Assembly (NCBI RefSeq): GCF_001984155.1
Contig: NZ_MTQO01000054.1
Span: 1-64,000 of the forward strand
Reading direction: 5' to 3'
Origin: Actinosynnema sp. ALI-1.44
Lineage (GTDB): Bacteria > Actinomycetota > Actinomycetes > Mycobacteriales > Pseudonocardiaceae
DNA length: 64,000 nucleotides
Position 1 is the stretch's first letter, and every line of letters starts with the position of its first letter. Under the pieces are notes generated by a model that worked only from the letters and a program-made list of their open reading frames with translations, was not told the DNA's origin and made no database searches. The position numbers and the translations under genes were made by a program. Positions 39,629 through 46,904 of the stretch are shown here, one piece after another.

Positions 39629-40402
39629 TCACAGCGCGTCGAGCTTGCGCTGGATCTTGTTCATCCCGGCGATCCAGCGGTCGTTCTGGGTCGCGCGGGC
39701 CGCGTAGTAGTCGGCGACCTCGGGGTGCGGCAGGATCAGGAACGAGTCGCCGCCCAAGGCGGCGACCACGTCGTCGGCGACCTGTTCGGCGGAGATCGCG
39801 CTGTCGCCCATCAGGAACTTCCCGGCCGGCCCGGTCGCCTCCAGCATCTGCGTGCGAACACCCTGCGGGCACAGGGCTTGCACGCCGATGCCGCGATGCT
39901 TGTACGTGGCGAGCAGCCATTCGGCGTACGCGAGCGCGGCGTGTTTGGTGACCGAGTAGGACGCCGAGCCGAGGGTGGTCAGCAGCCCGGCGGCGGACAC
40001 CGTCGCCAGGAAGTGGCCGCGGCCGCGTGCCAGCCAGGCGGGCAGCAGTGCCCGTGACGCCCGCACGTGCGACATCACGTTCACGTCCCAGGTGCGGGCC
40101 CAGTCCTCTTCCGGCGCGTCCGGGCCGCCCATCGGCGCGACGCCCGCGTTCGCGCAGTACATGTCGACCTCGCCGAGGGCCGCACGGGCCCGCGCGATGA
40201 GCTCGTCGACGCCTTCCTCACCGGCGGCGTCACCGACGACCGCGGTCGCGCCGAGCTCGGACGCCACCGCATCGACCGAACTGTCCACATCGGCCAGCAC
40301 CAGCCGTGCGCCCTCACGGGCGAACCGGCGGGCCAGCGCGGCGCCGATGCCCCGGCCCGCGCCGGTGATGACGACGCCCGCGCCGTCCAGCGCGAAGGTC
40401 AC
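39629..40402 (-). CDS. Short-chain dehydrogenase/reductase
   Basis: A 257-aa classical SDR. NAD(P) motif GAGRGIGAALA is at residues 14-24, D of the LADVDSS segment near 40 suggests NAD preference, NAG motif reads CANAGVAPMGG, and the catalytic Y-x3-K is YSVTKHAAL. It is coupled to the preceding SDR gene by a 4-nt overlap (40399-40402). Context with TetR regulators, enoyl-CoA hydratase and acyl-CoA dehydrogenase suggests lipid or steroid-like substrates. Confidence 0.88.
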   Translation of the reverse strand: MTFALDGAGVVITGAGRGIGAALARRFAREGARLVLADVDSSVDAVASELGATAVVGDAAGEEGVDELIARARAALGEVDMYCANAGVAPMGGPDAPEEDWARTWDVNVMSHVRASRALLPAWLARGRGHFLATVSAAGLLTTLGSASYSVTKHAALAYAEWLLATYKHRGIGVQALCPQGVRTQMLEATGPAGKFLMGDSAISAEQVADDVVAALGGDSFLILPHPEVADYYAARATQNDRWIAGMNKIQRKLDAL

Positions 40403-41151
40403 AGCCCACCACCCAGCGAGACGCCGCCGTCGAGCACGATCGTCTGCCCGGTGATCCAGCTCGCCTCCGCCGACAACAGGAACACGACCGCGTTGGCGAT
40501 GTCGGCGGGCACGCCGAGCCGCTTGAGCGGGTAGGCCTGCGCGATGGCCTCCTCGTTGTCCTGGATCAGCGCACCGGCGAACTTCGTCTTCACGATCGCG
40601 GGCGCGACCGCGTTCACCCTGATGTCCGGGCCCAGGTCGACGGCGAGTTCCATGGTCAGCCTGATCAGCGCCGCCTTGCTGACGCCGTACAGGCCGATGC
40701 CGGGCGAGGCGCGCAGCCCGGCGATGGAGGACACGTTCACGATCGACCCGCCGTGCTCACCCATCCACGCGTCGCGCGCTTTGCGCGTCCACGACAGCGG
40801 CGCGAGCACGTTCACGGCGAGGATCTTGGCGGCCGCGCCCATGTCGATGTCCACGGTCGGGCCGAACACCGGGTTGATGCCGGTGTTGTTGACCAGCATG
40901 TCGACCCGGCCGAACGCCTCCAGCGTGCGGGCGATCGCCTCGTCCTGGTGGTCGGTGTCGTCGGCCTTGCCCGGGACGAAGATCGCGTTGTCCGGTCCGC
41001 CGAGCGACGTGGCGGCCTCTTCGAGCGCCTCGGGCTTGCGCGCGGTGATGCAGACCTTCGCGCCGCGCTCGGTCAGTTCCTTCGCGATGCCGAGGCCGAT
41101 GCCACGGCTGGCGCCGGTGACGATCGCCACCCTGTCCTTCAACGACGTCAC
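40399..41151 (-). CDS. FabG-like short-chain dehydrogenase/reductase
   Basis: A 250-aa SDR predicted to reduce or oxidise a 3-oxoacyl/3-hydroxyacyl substrate. Motifs are GASRGIGLGIA, NNTGINPVFG and catalytic YGVSKAAL, with VNAVAPAIVKTKF and a C-terminal GQTIVLDGG that closes the fold. GTG at 41151 is chosen because GGAAAGGA precedes it; a longer frame continues through the divergent TetR gene and is spurious. A CTAAGC-N4-GCTTAG palindrome lies 15 bp upstream. Confidence 0.88.
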   Translation of the reverse strand: MTSLKDRVAIVTGASRGIGLGIAKELTERGAKVCITARKPEALEEAATSLGGPDNAIFVPGKADDTDHQDEAIARTLEAFGRVDMLVNNTGINPVFGPTVDIDMGAAAKILAVNVLAPLSWTRKARDAWMGEHGGSIVNVSSIAGLRASPGIGLYGVSKAALIRLTMELAVDLGPDIRVNAVAPAIVKTKFAGALIQDNEEAIAQAYPLKRLGVPADIANAVVFLLSAEASWITGQTIVLDGGVSLGGGL

Positions 41152-41165
41152 TTCGGCGTCCTTTC

Positions 41166-41181
41166 CTAAGCACACGCTTAG
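41166..41181. promoter_or_regulatory. CTAAGC-N4-GCTTAG palindrome, site 1
   Basis: CTAAGC-ACAC-GCTTAG lies in the 51-bp gap between the SDR operon and the divergent TetR gene. The same palindrome recurs at 42700 and, imperfectly, at 41872. It is the natural operator candidate for the TetR protein encoded at 41203. Confidence 0.75.
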
Positions 41182-41202: not shown

Positions 41203-41817
41203 ATGACGATGTCGCTGCCCGCCGACCTGTGGCCGGACGTCAAGCCGGACGCGGCCAGACGACTGATGTACGCGGCGGTGGAGTCCTTCGCCAAGGTCGG
41301 CTTCCACGGCACGACCACCAGGGACATCGCCACCGCGGCCGGGATGAGCCCGGCTGCCCTGTACGTGCACTTCTCGTCGAAGGCGGCGTTGCTGTTCGCG
41401 ATCAGCCGCGACGGGCACGAACGGACCCTCGAAATGGTCCAACGGGTCGCCGGTACCGACGGCTCGCCCGTCGACCGGGTGCGCCTGCTGGTCGAGCGGT
41501 TCGTCGAGTGGCACGCGCGGCGGCACGTCGTCGCCCGTGTCGTGCAGTACGAACTGGAGGCGTTGCCCGCGGACGAGTACACGACCGTGGCGGCCTTGCG
41601 GCGCCGGATCGAGCAGGTCGTCCAGTCGCTGATCGCCGACGGTGTCAAGGACGGCTCGTTCACCGTTCCCGACGAGAAGATCGCCGCGCGGGCGGTGCTG
41701 TCGCTGGGGATCGACGTGGCCCGGTGGTACAGCGAGCGGGCGCGCAAGACGCCGAAGGCGCTGGGGCGTGAGTACGCCACCCTCGTCCTGCGCATGCTCG
41801 GCTCCTCTGCCCAGTAA
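41203..41817 (+). CDS. TetR-family regulator of acyl-CoA/SDR genes
   Basis: A 204-aa TetR regulator with a clear HTH (TTRDIATAAGMSPAALYVHF). It is divergent from the SDR pair, with palindrome site 1 between, and the same palindrome lies ahead of the enoyl-CoA hydratase gene and near the downstream TetR. It therefore probably represses this small regulon, likely relieved by an acyl-CoA; the ligand is inferred. An alternative ATG lies two codons downstream of the first. Confidence 0.88.
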   Translation: MTMSLPADLWPDVKPDAARRLMYAAVESFAKVGFHGTTTRDIATAAGMSPAALYVHFSSKAALLFAISRDGHERTLEMVQRVAGTDGSPVDRVRLLVERFVEWHARRHVVARVVQYELEALPADEYTTVAALRRRIEQVVQSLIADGVKDGSFTVPDEKIAARAVLSLGIDVARWYSERARKTPKALGREYATLVLRMLGSSAQ

Positions 41818-41871: not shown

Positions 41872-41887
41872 CTAAGCGGTTGCTCAC
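41872..41887. promoter_or_regulatory. CTAAGC-N4-GCTTAG palindrome, imperfect site 2
   Basis: CTAAGC-GGTT-GCTCAC keeps the left arm and spacer of site 3 and has two changes in the right arm. It lies between the convergent TetR and enoyl-CoA hydratase genes, an unusual place for an operator, so it may be a weak or relic site. Confidence 0.45.
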
Positions 41888-41906: not shown

Positions 41907-42698
41907 TCACCCCGGGTACGGCGGGAACCGCGGTGGCCGTCGCTCCAGCCAGCTGACCACGCCTTCCTTCGACTCCGGGTGCGTGAACGAGTCGTTCATC
42001 AGCGCGGCGGCCCGCAGACCGGACTCCTCCAGCGGGATCGACGCCTCGTCCAGGATCTGCCGCTTCATCACGGCCATCGACCGCGGCGCGCTGAAGGCGG
42101 CCAGTTCGGCCGCGTACGCCTGGGCGGCGGAGAGCAGCTCGTCAGCCGGGAGAACCTCCTGGACCAGGCCGTACGACTGGGCCTGCTCGGCGGTGAAGGT
42201 CCGGCCGGACAGCAGCAGGTCCATCGCCCGGCCGCGGCCGACCAGACCGGGCAGCAGGTGTGCGACGCCGTACTCCGCGATCAGGCCACGTCGCGCGAAC
42301 GCGGTCGTGAACTTCGCCCCGGCCGCGGCGAACCGCACGTCGGCGGTGCAGGCGATGACGAAGCCGAGGCCGGCGCAGCCGCCGTTGATCGCCGCGATCA
42401 CGGGCTTGCCGACGAACGCGGCCGCCTGCACGTGCTCGACCTGGAAGTCGATCTGGTTGCCCGGCGTGACACCGGCGAGGACGTCCAGGTCGGCGCCGGG
42501 GCAGAAGGCCCGGCCCGCGCCGGTCAGCACGATGGCCCGCGCACTCGTGTCGGCCTCCAGCGAGCGCAGCAGCTCCCCGTACCGGCGCTCCATCGCCAGG
42601 TCCATCGAGTTGTTGCGGTCCGGCCGGTCGAAAGTCACGGTCGCCACGCCGTCGGTCACCGAGCAGCGCACGCCGTCCTCGAGTGTCATGGTTGACAT
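41907..42698 (-). CDS. Enoyl-CoA hydratase/isomerase family protein
   Basis: A 263-aa crotonase-fold protein. The oxyanion-hole segments GRAFCPGADL and INGGCAGLGFVIA are present. One of the two usual catalytic Glu positions seems to hold another residue (AEYGVAHLLPGLVG region retains one E), so hydratase versus isomerase activity is open. It is transcribed leftwards from a gap that holds palindrome site 3 and a second palindrome, and is divergent from the second TetR gene. Confidence 0.85.
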   Translation of the reverse strand: MSTMTLEDGVRCSVTDGVATVTFDRPDRNNSMDLAMERRYGELLRSLEADTSARAIVLTGAGRAFCPGADLDVLAGVTPGNQIDFQVEHVQAAAFVGKPVIAAINGGCAGLGFVIACTADVRFAAAGAKFTTAFARRGLIAEYGVAHLLPGLVGRGRAMDLLLSGRTFTAEQAQSYGLVQEVLPADELLSAAQAYAAELAAFSAPRSMAVMKRQILDEASIPLEESGLRAAALMNDSFTHPESKEGVVSWLERRPPRFPPYPG

Positions 42699-42699
42699 G

Positions 42700-42715
42700 C
42701 TAAGCGGTTGCTTAG
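42700..42715. promoter_or_regulatory. CTAAGC-N4-GCTTAG palindrome, site 3
   Basis: CTAAGC-GGTT-GCTTAG begins 1 bp beyond the start codon of the enoyl-CoA hydratase gene. It is identical in both arms to site 1, which supports one TetR protein acting at both places. Confidence 0.75.
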
Positions 42716-42738: not shown

Positions 42739-42754
42739 CATACCGAGCGGTATG
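42739..42754. promoter_or_regulatory. CATACCG-AG-CGGTATG palindrome ahead of second TetR operon
   Basis: Perfect 7-bp arms with a 2-bp spacer, 35 bp before the TetR gene at 42790. It differs from the CTAAGC sites, so it is probably the operator of the second TetR protein and controls the TetR-FabG-MaoC-phosphotransferase-dehydrogenase operon. Confidence 0.75.
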
Positions 42755-42789: not shown

Positions 42790-43386
42790 ATGAGCCGCAG
42801 GCCCGCGAATGCGTCCGGTGTGGACGACCGGCTGCTTGCCGAGGCCACGAGGCTGTTCGCCAGACAGGGCTTCGACCGGACGTCGGTCCAGGAGGTCGTC
42901 GAGGCCGCCGGGGTCACCAAGGGCGCGATGTACCACTACTTCGGCTCCAAGGACGACCTGCTGCACGAGATCTACGGCCGCGTGCTGCGCGACCAGACCG
43001 CCCGGCTGGAGAAGTTCGCGGCAGGCGAGGCCCCCGCGCCGCAGCGGCTGCGGGACGCGGCCGCCGACGTCGTCGTCACCACCATCGAGAACCTGGACGA
43101 CTTCAAGATCTTCACGCAGTCCATGCACCACCTCAGTGCGGCGAAACAACGCGCGGTGCGCGCCGAACGGCGCAAGTACCACGAGAGGTTCCGCTCGCTG
43201 GTCGAGGAAGGGCAGCGCGACGGCGATTTCCGCGCCGACGTGCCCGCCGACCTGGTGGTGGACTACTTCTTCGGGTCCGTGCACCACCTGGGTGTGTGGT
43301 ACCGCCGCAACGGCAGGCTCACGCCCGCCCAGATCGCCGATCACTACGCAGATCTGCTGCTGACATCACTGAAGGAGATTCCATGA
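42790..43386 (+). CDS. TetR-family regulator, first gene of the hydroxyacyl-CoA operon
   Basis: A 198-aa TetR regulator with HTH TSVQEVVEAAGVTKGAMYHYF. The ATG at 42790 follows ACGGAGGTA. The CATACCG palindrome lies 35 bp upstream, which indicates autoregulation of the operon. The stop overlaps the FabG-like start (ATGA). An acyl-CoA or free hydroxyacid ligand would fit the downstream enzymes. Confidence 0.9.
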   Translation: MSRRPANASGVDDRLLAEATRLFARQGFDRTSVQEVVEAAGVTKGAMYHYFGSKDDLLHEIYGRVLRDQTARLEKFAAGEAPAPQRLRDAAADVVVTTIENLDDFKIFTQSMHHLSAAKQRAVRAERRKYHERFRSLVEEGQRDGDFRADVPADLVVDYFFGSVHHLGVWYRRNGRLTPAQIADHYADLLLTSLKEIP

Positions 43387-44132
43387 GCAAGGTCGCGATC
43401 GTCACCGGCGCCGCGCGCGGCATCGGGGCGGCCGTAGCGCGCAGGCTGGCGTCCGACGGGTTCGCCGTCGCACTGTTGGACCTGCAGGACGCGGGCGTCA
43501 AGGAAGGCGCGGCGGCGATCACGGCCGACGGCGGCAAGGCGATCGGCCTCGTGGTCGACGTCAGCGACACCGAGCAGGTCGAGGCCGCGGTCGCCAAGGT
43601 GGCCGAGGAACTCGGCCCGCCGGTGGTCCTGGTCAACAACGCCGGGATCACCAGGGACAACCTGCTGTTCAAGATGACCGACGGCGACTGGGACTCGGTG
43701 ATCGGCGTGCACCTGCGCGGCTCGTTCCTGATGAGCCGGGCGGCGCAGAAGTACATGACGCAGCAGAAGTGGGGCCGGATCGTCAACCTGTCCAGCACGT
43801 CCGCGCTGGGCAACCGCGGCCAGGCGAACTACTCGGCGGCCAAGGCCGGTCTGCAGGGCTTCACCAAGACGCTGGCGATCGAACTCGGCAAGTTCGGCGT
43901 CACGGTGAACGCCATCGCGCCGGGCTTCATCGCCACCGAGATGACCGCGGCGACGGCCGAGCGGCTCGGCGTCTCCTTCGAGGACTTCAAGGCGGGCGCG
44001 GCCACGCAGATCCCGGTCGGCCGGGTCGGCGAGCCGGAGGACATCGCCCACCTGGTGTCGTTCTTCGCCAGCGAGGGTTCGGGCTTCGTCTCCGGCCAGG
44101 TCGTGTACGCGGCCGGCGGGCCACAGGACTGA
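43383..44132 (+). CDS. FabG-like 3-oxoacyl/3-hydroxyacyl reductase
   Basis: A 249-aa SDR. NAD(P) motif GAARGIGAAVA, LVNNAGITRDN, and catalytic YSAAKAGL are all present, and the C-terminus GQVVYAAGGPQD is typical of FabG-like enzymes. It is coupled to TetR upstream and lies 13 bp before the MaoC gene. In the proposed 4-hydroxyacyl-CoA route it could handle the hydroxy/oxo step of the shortened acyl-CoA; the direction and chain length are unknown. Confidence 0.88.
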   Translation: MSKVAIVTGAARGIGAAVARRLASDGFAVALLDLQDAGVKEGAAAITADGGKAIGLVVDVSDTEQVEAAVAKVAEELGPPVVLVNNAGITRDNLLFKMTDGDWDSVIGVHLRGSFLMSRAAQKYMTQQKWGRIVNLSSTSALGNRGQANYSAAKAGLQGFTKTLAIELGKFGVTVNAIAPGFIATEMTAATAERLGVSFEDFKAGAATQIPVGRVGEPEDIAHLVSFFASEGSGFVSGQVVYAAGGPQD

Positions 44133-44145
44133 GAGGACGCTGACC

Positions 44146-44598
44146 ATGCGGGTTTTCAAGGACGCGGACGAGCTGGCGGCGGCCAAGGGCGAGGTGCTCG
44201 GCACCGGCGAATGGCACGAGATCACCCAGGAGGCGGTGAACCTCTTCGCCGACGCGACCGGCGACCACCAGTGGATCCACGTGGACGTGGAGAAGGCGAA
44301 GGCCGGGCCGTTCGGCGGGCCGATCGCCCACGGGTACATGACGCTGTCGCTGGTGCCGGTGCTCGTCAGGGACATCTACAAGATCGAGAACGTGGCCATG
44401 GTGGTGAACTACGGATCCAACAAGGTCCGGTTCCCCTCGCCGGTCCGCGTCGGCGCCAGGGTCCGCGCGACCTCGGAGCTGGTGGACGTCACGGACGTCC
44501 AGGGTGGCAAGCAGGCGATCACCAAGGTGACCGTGGAGATCGAGGGCAGCGACAAGCCCGCTTGTGTCGCCGAGATCGTGAGCAGGGTCGTCCGATGA
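44146..44598 (+). CDS. MaoC-like acyl-CoA dehydratase
   Basis: A 150-aa hot-dog-fold protein. The hydratase-2 motif region reads FADATGDHQWIHVDVEKA with Asp and His as the catalytic pair, then GPIAHGYMTLSL. It should interconvert 2-enoyl-CoA and (3R)-hydroxyacyl-CoA. It overlaps the phosphotransferase gene by 4 nt and thus is tightly built into the operon. Confidence 0.88.
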   Translation: MRVFKDADELAAAKGEVLGTGEWHEITQEAVNLFADATGDHQWIHVDVEKAKAGPFGGPIAHGYMTLSLVPVLVRDIYKIENVAMVVNYGSNKVRFPSPVRVGARVRATSELVDVTDVQGGKQAITKVTVEIEGSDKPACVAEIVSRVVR

Positions 44599-45584
44599 GC
44601 CTGCCGGGTCTGGACCTCGACAAACTGGGCGGCAAGCTCGGCGACGGCCCGCTGTCGGCGCAGCTCGTGGAGGGCGGCCGCTCGAACCTGACCTACGTCG
44701 TCACCGACGGCAAGCAGAAGTGGGTCGTCCGCAGGCCTCCGCTGGGGCACGTGCTGCCCACCGCGCACGACATGTCCCGCGAGTACCGCGTGATCACGGC
44801 GTTGCGGGACACGGCCGTACCCGTTCCGGCCACGTACTTCCTCTGCGACGACACCGAAGTGCTCGGTGCGCCGTTCTACGTCATGGAGTTCATGCCGGGA
44901 GTTCCCTACCGCAGCAAGGACGAACTCGGCAAGCTCGGTCCGGAAAGGACACGAGCGATCGCGCTCGCCATGGTCGACACACTGGCCGACCTGCACGCGG
45001 TGGACCCGGATTCGGTCGGGCTCGGCGACTTCGGGCGGCCGGCGGGCTACCTGGAACGCCAGCTCAGGCGCTGGGGCAAGCAGTTGGACGCGTCCCGCAG
45101 CCGTGACCTGCCCGGCATCGACCGGCTGCACGAGCGACTGGCCGCACGGCTGCCCGCGTCGACCGAGGCGACGATCCTGCACGGCGACTACCGCCTGGAC
45201 AACACGCTGGTGCTCGACGACAGGATCACGGCGGTGCTGGACTGGGAGATGTCGACGCTCGGCGATCCGCTCGCCGACCTCGGGCTGACCCTGGCGTACG
45301 CGTCCCGCGAGACACCGGACGACTCGATCATCTCCAACGTCAGCGGCGCGCCCGGCTACCCGAGCGCCGACGAGGTGATCGACCACTACGCCACGCGCAC
45401 CGGCCGTGACGTGTCCGACCTGGACTGGTACATCGCGTTCTCGTTCTTCAAGCTCGCGGTGATCACCGAGGGCATCTACTACCGGTTCAGCCAGGGAAAG
45501 ACGGTCGGCCAGGGCTTCGAGAAGATCGGCGCGCTCGTCGAACCCGTCGTCGCGCAGGGCAACGCCACCCTCAAGGAGAGCTGA
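44595..45584 (+). CDS. APH-like phosphotransferase, ACAD10/11 kinase-domain / LvaA type
   Basis: A 329-aa kinase-fold protein of the aminoglycoside-phosphotransferase family. Nucleotide-binding G(R)SNLTYVV, the catalytic HGDYRLDN and the metal-binding DWEMSTLGDPLADLG are all present. The pattern SNLTY...RRPPLGHVLPTAHDMSREY is like the kinase domain of mammalian ACAD10/11 and LvaA of the Pseudomonas levulinate pathway, which phosphorylate 4-hydroxyacyl-CoA. It shares one base with the following acyl-CoA dehydrogenase gene. Antibiotic resistance is much less likely given this context. Confidence 0.82.
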   Translation: MSLPGLDLDKLGGKLGDGPLSAQLVEGGRSNLTYVVTDGKQKWVVRRPPLGHVLPTAHDMSREYRVITALRDTAVPVPATYFLCDDTEVLGAPFYVMEFMPGVPYRSKDELGKLGPERTRAIALAMVDTLADLHAVDPDSVGLGDFGRPAGYLERQLRRWGKQLDASRSRDLPGIDRLHERLAARLPASTEATILHGDYRLDNTLVLDDRITAVLDWEMSTLGDPLADLGLTLAYASRETPDDSIISNVSGAPGYPSADEVIDHYATRTGRDVSDLDWYIAFSFFKLAVITEGIYYRFSQGKTVGQGFEKIGALVEPVVAQGNATLKES

Positions 45585-46792
45585 TGCACTTCGGCTACGA
45601 CGACCGCACCGAGGAACTCCGCGGCCGGTTGAACGCGTTCATGGACGAGTTCGTCTACCCGGCCGAGCCGGTGTTCGAACAGCAGATGGCAGCAGGAGAC
45701 CCGTGGAGCCCGCCGCCGGTGGTGGAGGAACTCAAGGCAGAGGCCCGAAAACGCGGCCTGTGGAACTTCTTCCTGCCCGGCGAGCACGGCGCGGGCCTGA
45801 CGAACCTGCAGTACGCGCCGCTCGCGGAGATCACCGGCCGCAGCCCGCACCTGGCGCCGACCGCGATCAACTGCGCGGCGCCGGACACCGGCAATATGGA
45901 AGTGCTGTCCATGTTCGGCACCGAGCAGCAGCGCAAGCAGTGGCTGAACCCGTTGCTGGAAGGCGAGATCCGCTCGGCGTTCGCGATGACCGAGCCGGAC
46001 GTGGCCTCGTCGGACGCGCGCAACATCGCCACCCGGATCGAGCGGGACGGCGGCGACTACGTGATCAACGGCAAGAAGTGGTTCATCTCCGGTGCGATGA
46101 ACCCGCGCTGCCAGATCTTCATCGTGATGGGCAAGACGGACCCGGACGGCGAGCCGCACCGCCAGCAGAGCATGATCCTGGTCCCGCGTGACACGCCGGG
46201 TATGGACATCAAGCGCGGCATGCATGTCTTCGGGTACACCGACGGCGACCACGGCGGCCACGCGGAGATCGAGTTCACCGACGTGCGGGTGCCGGCGGAG
46301 AACCTGATCGGCGAGGAGGGCGGCGGTTTCGCCGTCGCGCAGGCCCGCCTCGGCCCCGGCCGGATCCACCACTGCATGCGCCTGATCGGGATGGCCGAAC
46401 GTGCCATCGAGCTGATGTGCGAGCGGGCGGTGTCGCGGACGGCGTTCGGCAAGCCGATCGCGCAGCAGGGTGTCGTGCAGGACTGGATCGCCGAATCCCG
46501 CGTGCGGGTGGAACAGTTGCGCCTGCTCGTGCTCAAGACGGCGTGGCTGATGGACACGGTCGGCAACCAGGGCGCGCACACCGAGATCCAGTCCATCAAG
46601 ATCGCCACCCCGATCCAGGTCGAGTGGATCCTGGACAAGGCCATCCAGGCGCACGGCGCGGGCGGCGTCAGCCAGGACACCCCGTTGGCCGGACTGTGGG
46701 CGCACGCCCGCACGCTGCGACTGGCGGACGGGCCGGACGAGGTCCACAAGCGCTCACTCGCCCGGCGCGAACTCGCCAAGCACCTCCCCTGA
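45584..46792 (+). CDS. Acyl-CoA dehydrogenase, ACAD10/11 / LvaC type
   Basis: A 402-aa flavoprotein of the acyl-CoA dehydrogenase superfamily. Signatures NCAAPDTGNMEVL, FAMTEPDVASSDA, ARLGPGRIHHCMR and LADGPDEVHK match, from memory, the dehydrogenase domain of ACAD10/11 rather than ordinary fatty-acyl dehydrogenases. In mammals this domain is fused to the APH kinase; here they are adjacent genes sharing a base. Predicted role: eliminate phosphate from 4-phosphoacyl-CoA to bring the chain back to beta-oxidation. A long inverted repeat follows the stop. Confidence 0.88.
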   Translation: MHFGYDDRTEELRGRLNAFMDEFVYPAEPVFEQQMAAGDPWSPPPVVEELKAEARKRGLWNFFLPGEHGAGLTNLQYAPLAEITGRSPHLAPTAINCAAPDTGNMEVLSMFGTEQQRKQWLNPLLEGEIRSAFAMTEPDVASSDARNIATRIERDGGDYVINGKKWFISGAMNPRCQIFIVMGKTDPDGEPHRQQSMILVPRDTPGMDIKRGMHVFGYTDGDHGGHAEIEFTDVRVPAENLIGEEGGGFAVAQARLGPGRIHHCMRLIGMAERAIELMCERAVSRTAFGKPIAQQGVVQDWIAESRVRVEQLRLLVLKTAWLMDTVGNQGAHTEIQSIKIATPIQVEWILDKAIQAHGAGGVSQDTPLAGLWAHARTLRLADGPDEVHKRSLARRELAKHLP

Positions 46793-46794
46793 AA

Positions 46795-46855
46795 AGCCCT
46801 CGTGAGTGTTCAAGCGGGTTTGGGTTCCCACCGGCCTGAACACTCACGAGGGGCT
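46795..46855. repeat. Long near-perfect inverted repeat CCTCGTGAGTGTTCA
   Basis: Left arm 46795-46812 and right arm 46837-46855 are complementary over 18 positions with one bulged base, around a 24-nt loop. It begins 3 nt after the dehydrogenase stop and may terminate transcription. I recall the CCTCGTGAGTGTTCA element as a frequent intergenic repeat in Amycolatopsis-like genomes. Confidence 0.75.
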
Positions 46856-46904
46856 CGGTCACCCGGGAGAATGACGTGGTCGCGGGACCGGTTAGCCTGC
46901 CCGT

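Follow-up and report, generated by a model that had tools for sequence, protein, structure and literature searches.

A 64,000-nucleotide stretch of the genome of Actinosynnema sp. ALI-1.44 (hereafter, the window) harbors five genes arranged head to tail on the + strand at positions 42790-46792, encoding a TetR-family regulator, a FabG-like enzyme, a MaoC protein, an APH-type kinase and an acyl-coenzyme A (CoA) dehydrogenase. It is very probable that this operon feeds 4-hydroxy fatty acids, either free or from gamma-lactones, into beta-oxidation by way of 4-phosphoacyl-CoA, with an (R)-specific route and under TetR control. The chemistry of the kinase-dehydrogenase pair is already known from ACAD10 and ACAD11; the operon form is new, with its probable (R)-specific second half, a locally confined palindrome and, in some relatives, operons that include a HAD gene. 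A first-pass annotation of the window had proposed a split ACAD10/11-type pair in a regulated operon, and the present analysis supports it in substance. It had also known of no description in this type of organism, and a search of the open-access literature likewise found none in actinobacteria, the single paper listed being on Paraburkholderia.

The first gene of the operon codes for the regulator, designated TetRb (42790..43386; PF00440, 71.3 bits; PF17932, 98 bits). It is followed by the FabG-like short-chain dehydrogenase/reductase (SDR), a putative (R)-3-hydroxyacyl-CoA dehydrogenase (43383..44132; PF13561, 206.8 bits), and by the MaoC-fold protein, a putative (R)-specific 2-enoyl-CoA hydratase (44146..44598; PF01575, 107.5 bits). 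The last two genes code for the APH-fold kinase, a predicted 4-hydroxyacyl-CoA kinase (44595..45584), and for the dehydrogenase, predicted to eliminate phosphate from 4-phosphoacyl-CoA (45584..46792). The Pfam search confirmed the family of each protein, and the gene set agreed with the one annotated earlier. Overlaps of four bases were found between the TetR and FabG genes and between the MaoC and kinase genes, and the single base noted before as common to the kinase and the dehydrogenase was located at 45584, where the TGA of the former meets the ATG of the latter.

Comparison of the dehydrogenase with PDB sequences ranked ACAD11 first (462, 460 and 450 bits; we take 8v3u and 8v3v to be the mouse protein and 2wbi the human one), followed by 4hr3 (428 bits), the next enzyme being an ordinary dehydrogenase at 149.7 bits. 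Alignment with ACAD11 showed 217 identical residues out of 393 (55.2%). The accessible text of PMC12440821, which deals with M. musculus ACAD11, assigns R626, R631, H634, R637 and D753, along with D220, N225 and R176 of the kinase part, to catalysis or substrate binding; the first five correspond to R255, R260, H263, R266 and D382 of the window dehydrogenase, all identical. This R, R, H, R, D set was found to be intact in 145 of 146 loci rows that share 50% or more identity with the window dehydrogenase, a count in which rows overlap and species repeat, and the sole exception (L212) is a sequence that stops before the Asp. None of the 7 paralogue rows from the host genome carried the set. Of the ACAD11 motifs, GRIHHCMR and ADGPDEVH were identical in the window dehydrogenase and NCAAPDTGNMEVL was off by one residue. 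In the phylogenetic tree, 13 rows including ACAD11 fall on one side of a split (support 99/98), with the 7 paralogue rows as well as a cluster dehydrogenase on the other (the host rows L006 and L008 being identical). Owing to the difference in PDB score, the tree split and the conserved signature residues, the dehydrogenase is assigned by sequence to the ACAD10/11-LvaC type. A second dehydrogenase of the host genome, L002 (G000:C13:22161-23171), is 36-39% identical and reads R, R, R, R, D, with only the His replaced (by Arg). It was placed next to the ACAD11-type rows in the tree and is possibly a divergent relative acting on another phosphorylated substrate.

The kinase matched, in order, the PDB sequences 9o56 (239 bits), 3dxp (197), ACAD11 (179 and 175), 3ats, which we take to be Rv3168 (65), 9fsg (54) and MphH (32; 31.8 before rounding). 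The open-access literature search returned nothing on entry 9o56. The alignment with ACAD11 contained 111 identical residues out of 297 (37.4%), and the ACAD11 kinase residues D220, N225 and R176 were found unchanged as D198, N203 and R155. The alpha-C Arg-Glu pair is conserved as R62-E63; the Arg beside the alpha-C Glu is printed as R86 in the available part of PMC12440821, and the chain numbering gives 84. The motifs HGDYRLDN and SNLTY each differ from ACAD11 at two positions. Hence all five motifs quoted in the first-pass annotation are present, two of them identical in ACAD11 and the others one or two residues off. In the kinase tree, 11 rows including ACAD11 split off with support 100/99 from 3ats and one APH protein of the host genome, five further host APH loci having given no match and been left out. 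Both trees were midpoint-rooted only and contain several long end branches, so that their inner order is unsure. The window kinase is thus, by sequence, of the ACAD10/11 kinase-domain type. A role as an antibiotic-resistance phosphotransferase was considered and rejected, as the best aminoglycoside-kinase model, APH_3p, scored 38.3 bits, far under its curated cut-off of 205, and the PDB match to MphH reached 31.8 bits; the database label "phosphotransferase" on such kinases should not be taken as a sign of antibiotic resistance. The PDB ranks, trees and residues place the two proteins apart from ordinary dehydrogenases and from antibiotic or sugar kinases, in agreement with the ACAD10/11 membership claimed for them before.

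The two genes also travel together. Using presence cut-offs chosen by us (E<=1e-100 for the dehydrogenase, E<=1e-45 for the kinase), 60 genomes, the host and 59 relatives, were surveyed; being related, they do not amount to 60 independent trials. Both genes were present in 53 and neither in 6, the dehydrogenase never occurred alone, and the kinase stood alone in one genome (G048), which is 82% complete. Of 80 named loci, 47 have the kinase gene directly upstream of the dehydrogenase gene, 2-60 nt apart, and this adjacency is therefore not a matter of chance. A TetRb homologue flanks the dehydrogenase in 72 of the 80. The flanks of the other 33 loci contained no kinase homologue; their genera presumably belong to the Streptosporangiaceae, and the tree supports such an origin for the Nonomuraea among them. 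The idea that these represent kinase-less ACAD11-type enzymes was abandoned, as each of the 20 genomes checked among the 33 carries a kinase 52-56% identical. L068, L069, L100 and other loci of the Nonomuraea/Streptosporangium type have the ACAD11-type dehydrogenase with no flanking kinase, and in three of the four kinase loci read from such genomes another SDR gene follows the kinase.

The two remaining enzymes of the operon point to the second half of the pathway. The best PDB match of the MaoC protein was Rv0130 (2c2i, 189.5 bits), presumably an (R)-specific hydratase, aligned over residues 1-149, i.e., the full single domain, with the conserved Asp/His motif (GDHQWIH) identical. The FabG-like protein matched best the (3R)-hydroxyacyl-CoA dehydrogenase 2et6 (227 bits), with ordinary FabG reductases close behind (221 bits). 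These closest matches suggest an (R)-route in which (R)-3-hydroxyacyl-CoA would be formed and then converted to 3-oxoacyl-CoA. The neighboring enoyl-CoA hydratase/isomerase, encoded on the - strand divergently from the operon (41907..42698; PF00378, 164.8 bits; kept in the six close-kin loci), may serve the (S)-route.

Regulation was approached through palindromes. A perfect CTAAGC-N4-GCTTAG palindrome is present in the promoter region between the hydratase gene and the operon (42700..42715) and again in the promoter region (41166..41181) of a second TetR-family regulator, TetRa (41203..41817, + strand; PF17932, 101.9 bits), and its divergent SDR gene. A copy with two mismatches lies between the ends of the TetRa and hydratase genes (41872..41887), so that the window holds 3 sites with up to two mismatches vs. 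0.29 expected. The two perfect copies are the only ones in the 11.7-Mb host genome. Eight genomes of the genus, that of the host among them, hold 16 perfect sites, each at a distance of 1.9-4.4 kb from the kinase gene; a reversed control pattern gave 6 perfect sites anywhere in these genomes. Of the 28 named loci having the FabG gene, 16 show the palindrome core ahead of the operon, and TetRa flanks 13 of these 16 loci vs. none of the 12 without the core, where it could sit elsewhere in the genome. Two of the three core loci lacking a flanking TetRa are on short contigs, and in the third (L071) no TetRa gene appears over 13.5 kb. As its presence in the flanks tracks the core, TetRa is the likely binder of the CTAAGC palindrome. 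A second palindrome, CATACCGAGCGGTATG (42739..42754), lies upstream of TetRb, and a perfect palindrome of this type was found at the same place in five of the six close-kin loci (not in L051); other palindromes upstream of TetRb vary between groups. In Streptosporangiales loci (e.g., L068, L100 and L112), ACCGACCAGTCGGT recurs upstream of the TetRb homologue and is perhaps the TetRb operator there.

The following sequence of events is proposed. A ligase encoded elsewhere would first form the CoA ester, after which the kinase would phosphorylate the 4-hydroxyl group, turning 4-hydroxyacyl-CoA into 4-phosphoacyl-CoA. The dehydrogenase would then remove the phosphate through an internal cycle of oxidation, elimination and reduction at its flavin adenine dinucleotide (FAD), yielding trans-2-enoyl-CoA. 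MaoC would hydrate this to (R)-3-hydroxyacyl-CoA, the FabG-like enzyme would oxidize the latter to 3-oxoacyl-CoA, and a thiolase encoded elsewhere would cleave the product. TetRa and/or TetRb would control induction of the module through the palindromes CTAAGC-N4-GCTTAG and CATACCG-N2-CGGTATG, an acyl-CoA being the probable signal. The kinase and dehydrogenase reactions are modeled on characterized homologues. The accessible text of PMC12440821 describes the conversion of 4-hydroxyacyl-CoA through 4-phosphoacyl-CoA to 2-enoyl-CoA by ACAD10/11 and implicates D220, R626, H634, R637 and D753, and, as far as the available part of PMC11342911 goes, Burkholderia orthologues of the kinase and the dehydrogenase can stand in for the corresponding parts of ACAD10 in vitro. 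The (R)-specific steps by MaoC and FabG, the assignment of the TetR proteins to their sites and the nature of the natural substrate are proposed with less confidence.

Several observations weigh against this account. Open reading frames and Pfam matches revealed no CoA ligase, thiolase or lactonase gene in the cluster; some relatives have them, and the module can no longer be called self-contained, as the first-pass annotation had it. The ligases of the host genome are at most 38% identical to the cluster ligase of a relative, and the lactonase-like protein of a relative found no counterpart in the host genome at E<=1e-10. A lactonase homologue lies less than 5 kb from the module in only 2 (G022 and G027) of the 21 genomes having one, and a phosphotriesterase-family (lactonase-like) protein occurs in the flanks of just 8 of the 80 named loci. 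Within the genus, three of the eight genomes have a lactonase homologue, none near the module and two with an internal stop. A further pair of acyl-CoA dehydrogenase genes accompanies 71 of the 80 loci, which could point to a bulkier substrate. With respect to regulation, the host genome has 5 palindrome sites when one mismatch is allowed vs. 17 for the reversed control, and outside the genus 12 perfect sites were found in 6 of 29 genomes, some of them by other dehydrogenase genes and genes that we take to be thiolase-like. The palindrome is thus not exclusive to the module at the family level. Its one-mismatch form was also discarded as a means of finding a regulon, the three extra sites being next to genes with no fatty-acid link visible by eye and the control pattern being commoner.

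The evidence for lactones comes from relatives. The lactonase-like query found matches in 21 of the 60 genomes, and an acyl-CoA ligase flanks 10 of the 80 named loci. In G022 (locus L181), a ligase gene, a lactonase-like gene and TetRb form a one-strand row with the palindrome in its upstream region. The closest PDB entries to the lactonase-like protein were 4if2 (443 bits), presumably from M. tuberculosis, and 2vc5 (243 bits), presumably SsoPox. The accessible text of PMC3468530 describes PLL enzymes, the family to which these matches point, as native lactonases, with gamma-lactones among the substrates of SisLac. Since the lactonase is linked to the module in a minority only and is absent from the host genome, the gamma-lactone reading is weakened and stands as a lead rather than a result. 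Of the earlier suggestion that the operon feeds in 4-hydroxy fatty acids or gamma-lactones, the 4-hydroxyacyl-CoA role is supported by homology and the gamma-lactone part more weakly. The proposed pathway is further favored by a compact one-strand gene row at 34.8-47.8 kb of the Tsukamurella tyrosinosolvens plasmid NZ_LR134470.1 (L201), comprising genes for a thiolase, two SDR, a quinone oxidoreductase, a HAD phosphatase, FabG, MaoC, a phosphotransferase, three dehydrogenases, a phosphotriesterase and a ligase.

A bulky hydroxyacyl-CoA, such as an intermediate from a steroid or polyketide side chain, might undergo the same two reactions in place of simple 4-hydroxy fatty acids, and this is considered rather unlikely. 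KstR2, which appears among the PDB kin of TetRb, speaks for it, as does the extra dehydrogenase pair: in the loci read, its genes come right behind the ACAD11-type gene (e.g., L181, 7237-9530), and the one member searched in the PDB matched best Tcur3481 (6wy8) and 4x28, both of which we take to be parts of steroid-CoA dehydrogenase pairs. The open-access literature search found nothing on fadE36/fadE2. The pair is, however, missing from the cluster in the six close-kin loci of the window, and KstR2 ranks only fifth and sixth among the TetRb matches, with 59 bits. Moreover, it is simple 4-hydroxyacyl-CoA that the accessible text of PMC12440821 gives as the ACAD11 substrate. Catabolism of levulinate (4-oxopentanoate) on the model of the Pseudomonas lva operon, an SDR reducing levulinyl-CoA to 4-hydroxyvaleryl-CoA, would fit a kinase and a dehydrogenase of the LvaA/LvaC kind and the two further SDR genes adjoining the operon; it is decidedly improbable, as the cluster has no ligase gene and the SDR genes flank only 12 and 16 of the 80 loci. 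An ordinary beta-oxidation operon, in which a conventional acyl-CoA dehydrogenase neighbors an unrelated antibiotic- or sugar-kinase-like gene, could draw on the broad families that are all Pfam and NCBIfam offer, and is refuted at the sequence level and hardly credible given the 312 bits by which ACAD11 exceeds the best ordinary dehydrogenase among the PDB matches listed, the resistance-model score, the ACAD11-only residues, the co-occurrence of the two genes and the separation, in both trees, of the window proteins and ACAD11 from the host paralogues.

The window pair resembles mammalian ACAD11 (8v3u, 8v3v) in having both catalytic domains, the signature residues and the order kinase then dehydrogenase, and differs from this fusion in consisting of two genes that share one base within an operon with MaoC, FabG and TetR. 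Similarly, LvaA and LvaC of Pseudomonas putida, considered here by description, are a separate kinase and dehydrogenase of the same two families. The available part of PMC12440821 notes that LvaC has an Asp and active-site residues in common with ACAD10/11, and that of PMC11342911 puts LvaA at 29% to the kinase domains of ACAD10/11, vs. 37% between the window kinase and ACAD11. The lva operon also includes a reductase, LvaD, and a CoA ligase, LvaE; the cluster has MaoC and FabG-like genes in place of a ligase. The Burkholderia orthologues of PMC11342911 are, in its accessible text, stand-alone bacterial proteins like those of the window, but from another phylum.

The conserved module is wider than the five genes. 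The divergent hydratase, TetRa, the SDR gene divergent from TetRa (40399..41178, - strand; PF13561, 195.3 bits) and a second SDR gene following it (39629..40402, - strand; called an SDR from sequence similarity, with a homologue flanking 16 of the 80 named loci) accompany the operon in its six nearest named kin loci (L049-L053 and L058). All nine genes were found in each of these, L053 having the TetRa/SDR block in inverted orientation. The nearest named relatives of the host are Kibdelosporangium species, with dehydrogenases 92-94% identical. Just 3' of the dehydrogenase stop, a hairpin on the + strand (46797..46853; -47.7 kcal/mol and z -5.0 vs. 200 shuffles on folding of 46785-46870) likely marks the end of the operon. 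Its arms form the inverted repeat CCCTCGTGAGTGTTCA ... TGAACACTCACGAGGG. At 19.2 kb of L050 the core of this repeat again occurs as an inverted pair, but not behind the operon. L050 (JOAA01000008.1), filed as Rhodococcus rhodnii NRRL B-16535, contains the entire cluster at 82-94% identity in the Kibdelosporangium order, and the record is probably mislabeled or mixed.

In some relatives, a HAD gene joins the pair in the order known from ACAD10 (HAD-kinase-dehydrogenase). With the HAD protein of G014 as query, the 60 genomes yielded 42 rows; 25 genomes were each represented by one full-length row (E<=2.9e-26), and the other 17 rows, weaker or partial, were set aside. In 13 of the 25 genomes the HAD gene immediately precedes the kinase gene on the same strand, with gaps of 5-134 nt (e.g., G014:C41:211638-212291, which is L185, 7639-8292), and in 18 it is no more than 2 kb away from either the kinase or the dehydrogenase. 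It forms part of the gene row in G014 as well as on the Tsukamurella plasmid. In all 22 HAD sequences read (from 21 of the 25 genomes and the plasmid), the DxD motif retains its first Asp and has Gly for the second (DxG). According to the accessible text of PMC11342911, by whose description the bacterial proteins are set beside ACAD10, the HAD of ACAD10 has the first Asp only and mutating that Asp raises kinase activity. Some caution is needed, as the HAD phosphatase 2b0c also has Gly at the second position and two of the HADs scored 74 and 81 bits on TIGR02247, under its cut-off of 125.4. A fixed unit is also countered by 3 of the remaining 7 HAD genomes, which have neither kinase nor dehydrogenase, and by the 53 genomes having kinase and dehydrogenase, 32 of which, all 8 of the genus included, give no full-length HAD match. 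None of the eight genomes of the window's genus has a HAD homologue at E<=1e-15, and the window pair accordingly lacks an ACAD10-like HAD partner. Tentatively, and with the balance tilting somewhat to the other side, HAD-kinase-dehydrogenase may be an old functional unit, seen in actinobacteria as an operon in the ACAD10 order, in which a HAD without the second Asp would restrain the kinase or serve as its sensor; in mammals the unit would be fused as ACAD10, and the lineage of the window would have lost the HAD, with MaoC now standing before the kinase. The open-access literature search for bacterial HAD operons linked to ACAD10 yielded PMC11342911 and PMC12440821 only.

The role of ACAD10 and ACAD11 in the breakdown of 4-hydroxy acids in mammals was shown only in 2024-2025. 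As the actinobacterial proteins are separate, restraint of the kinase by the HAD can be tested by adding or omitting a single protein, and kinase-dehydrogenase pairs of this kind are offered for the conversion of lactones or levulinate. For the organism itself, the operon predicts that soil actinomycetes would use 4-hydroxy acids and perhaps gamma-lactones.

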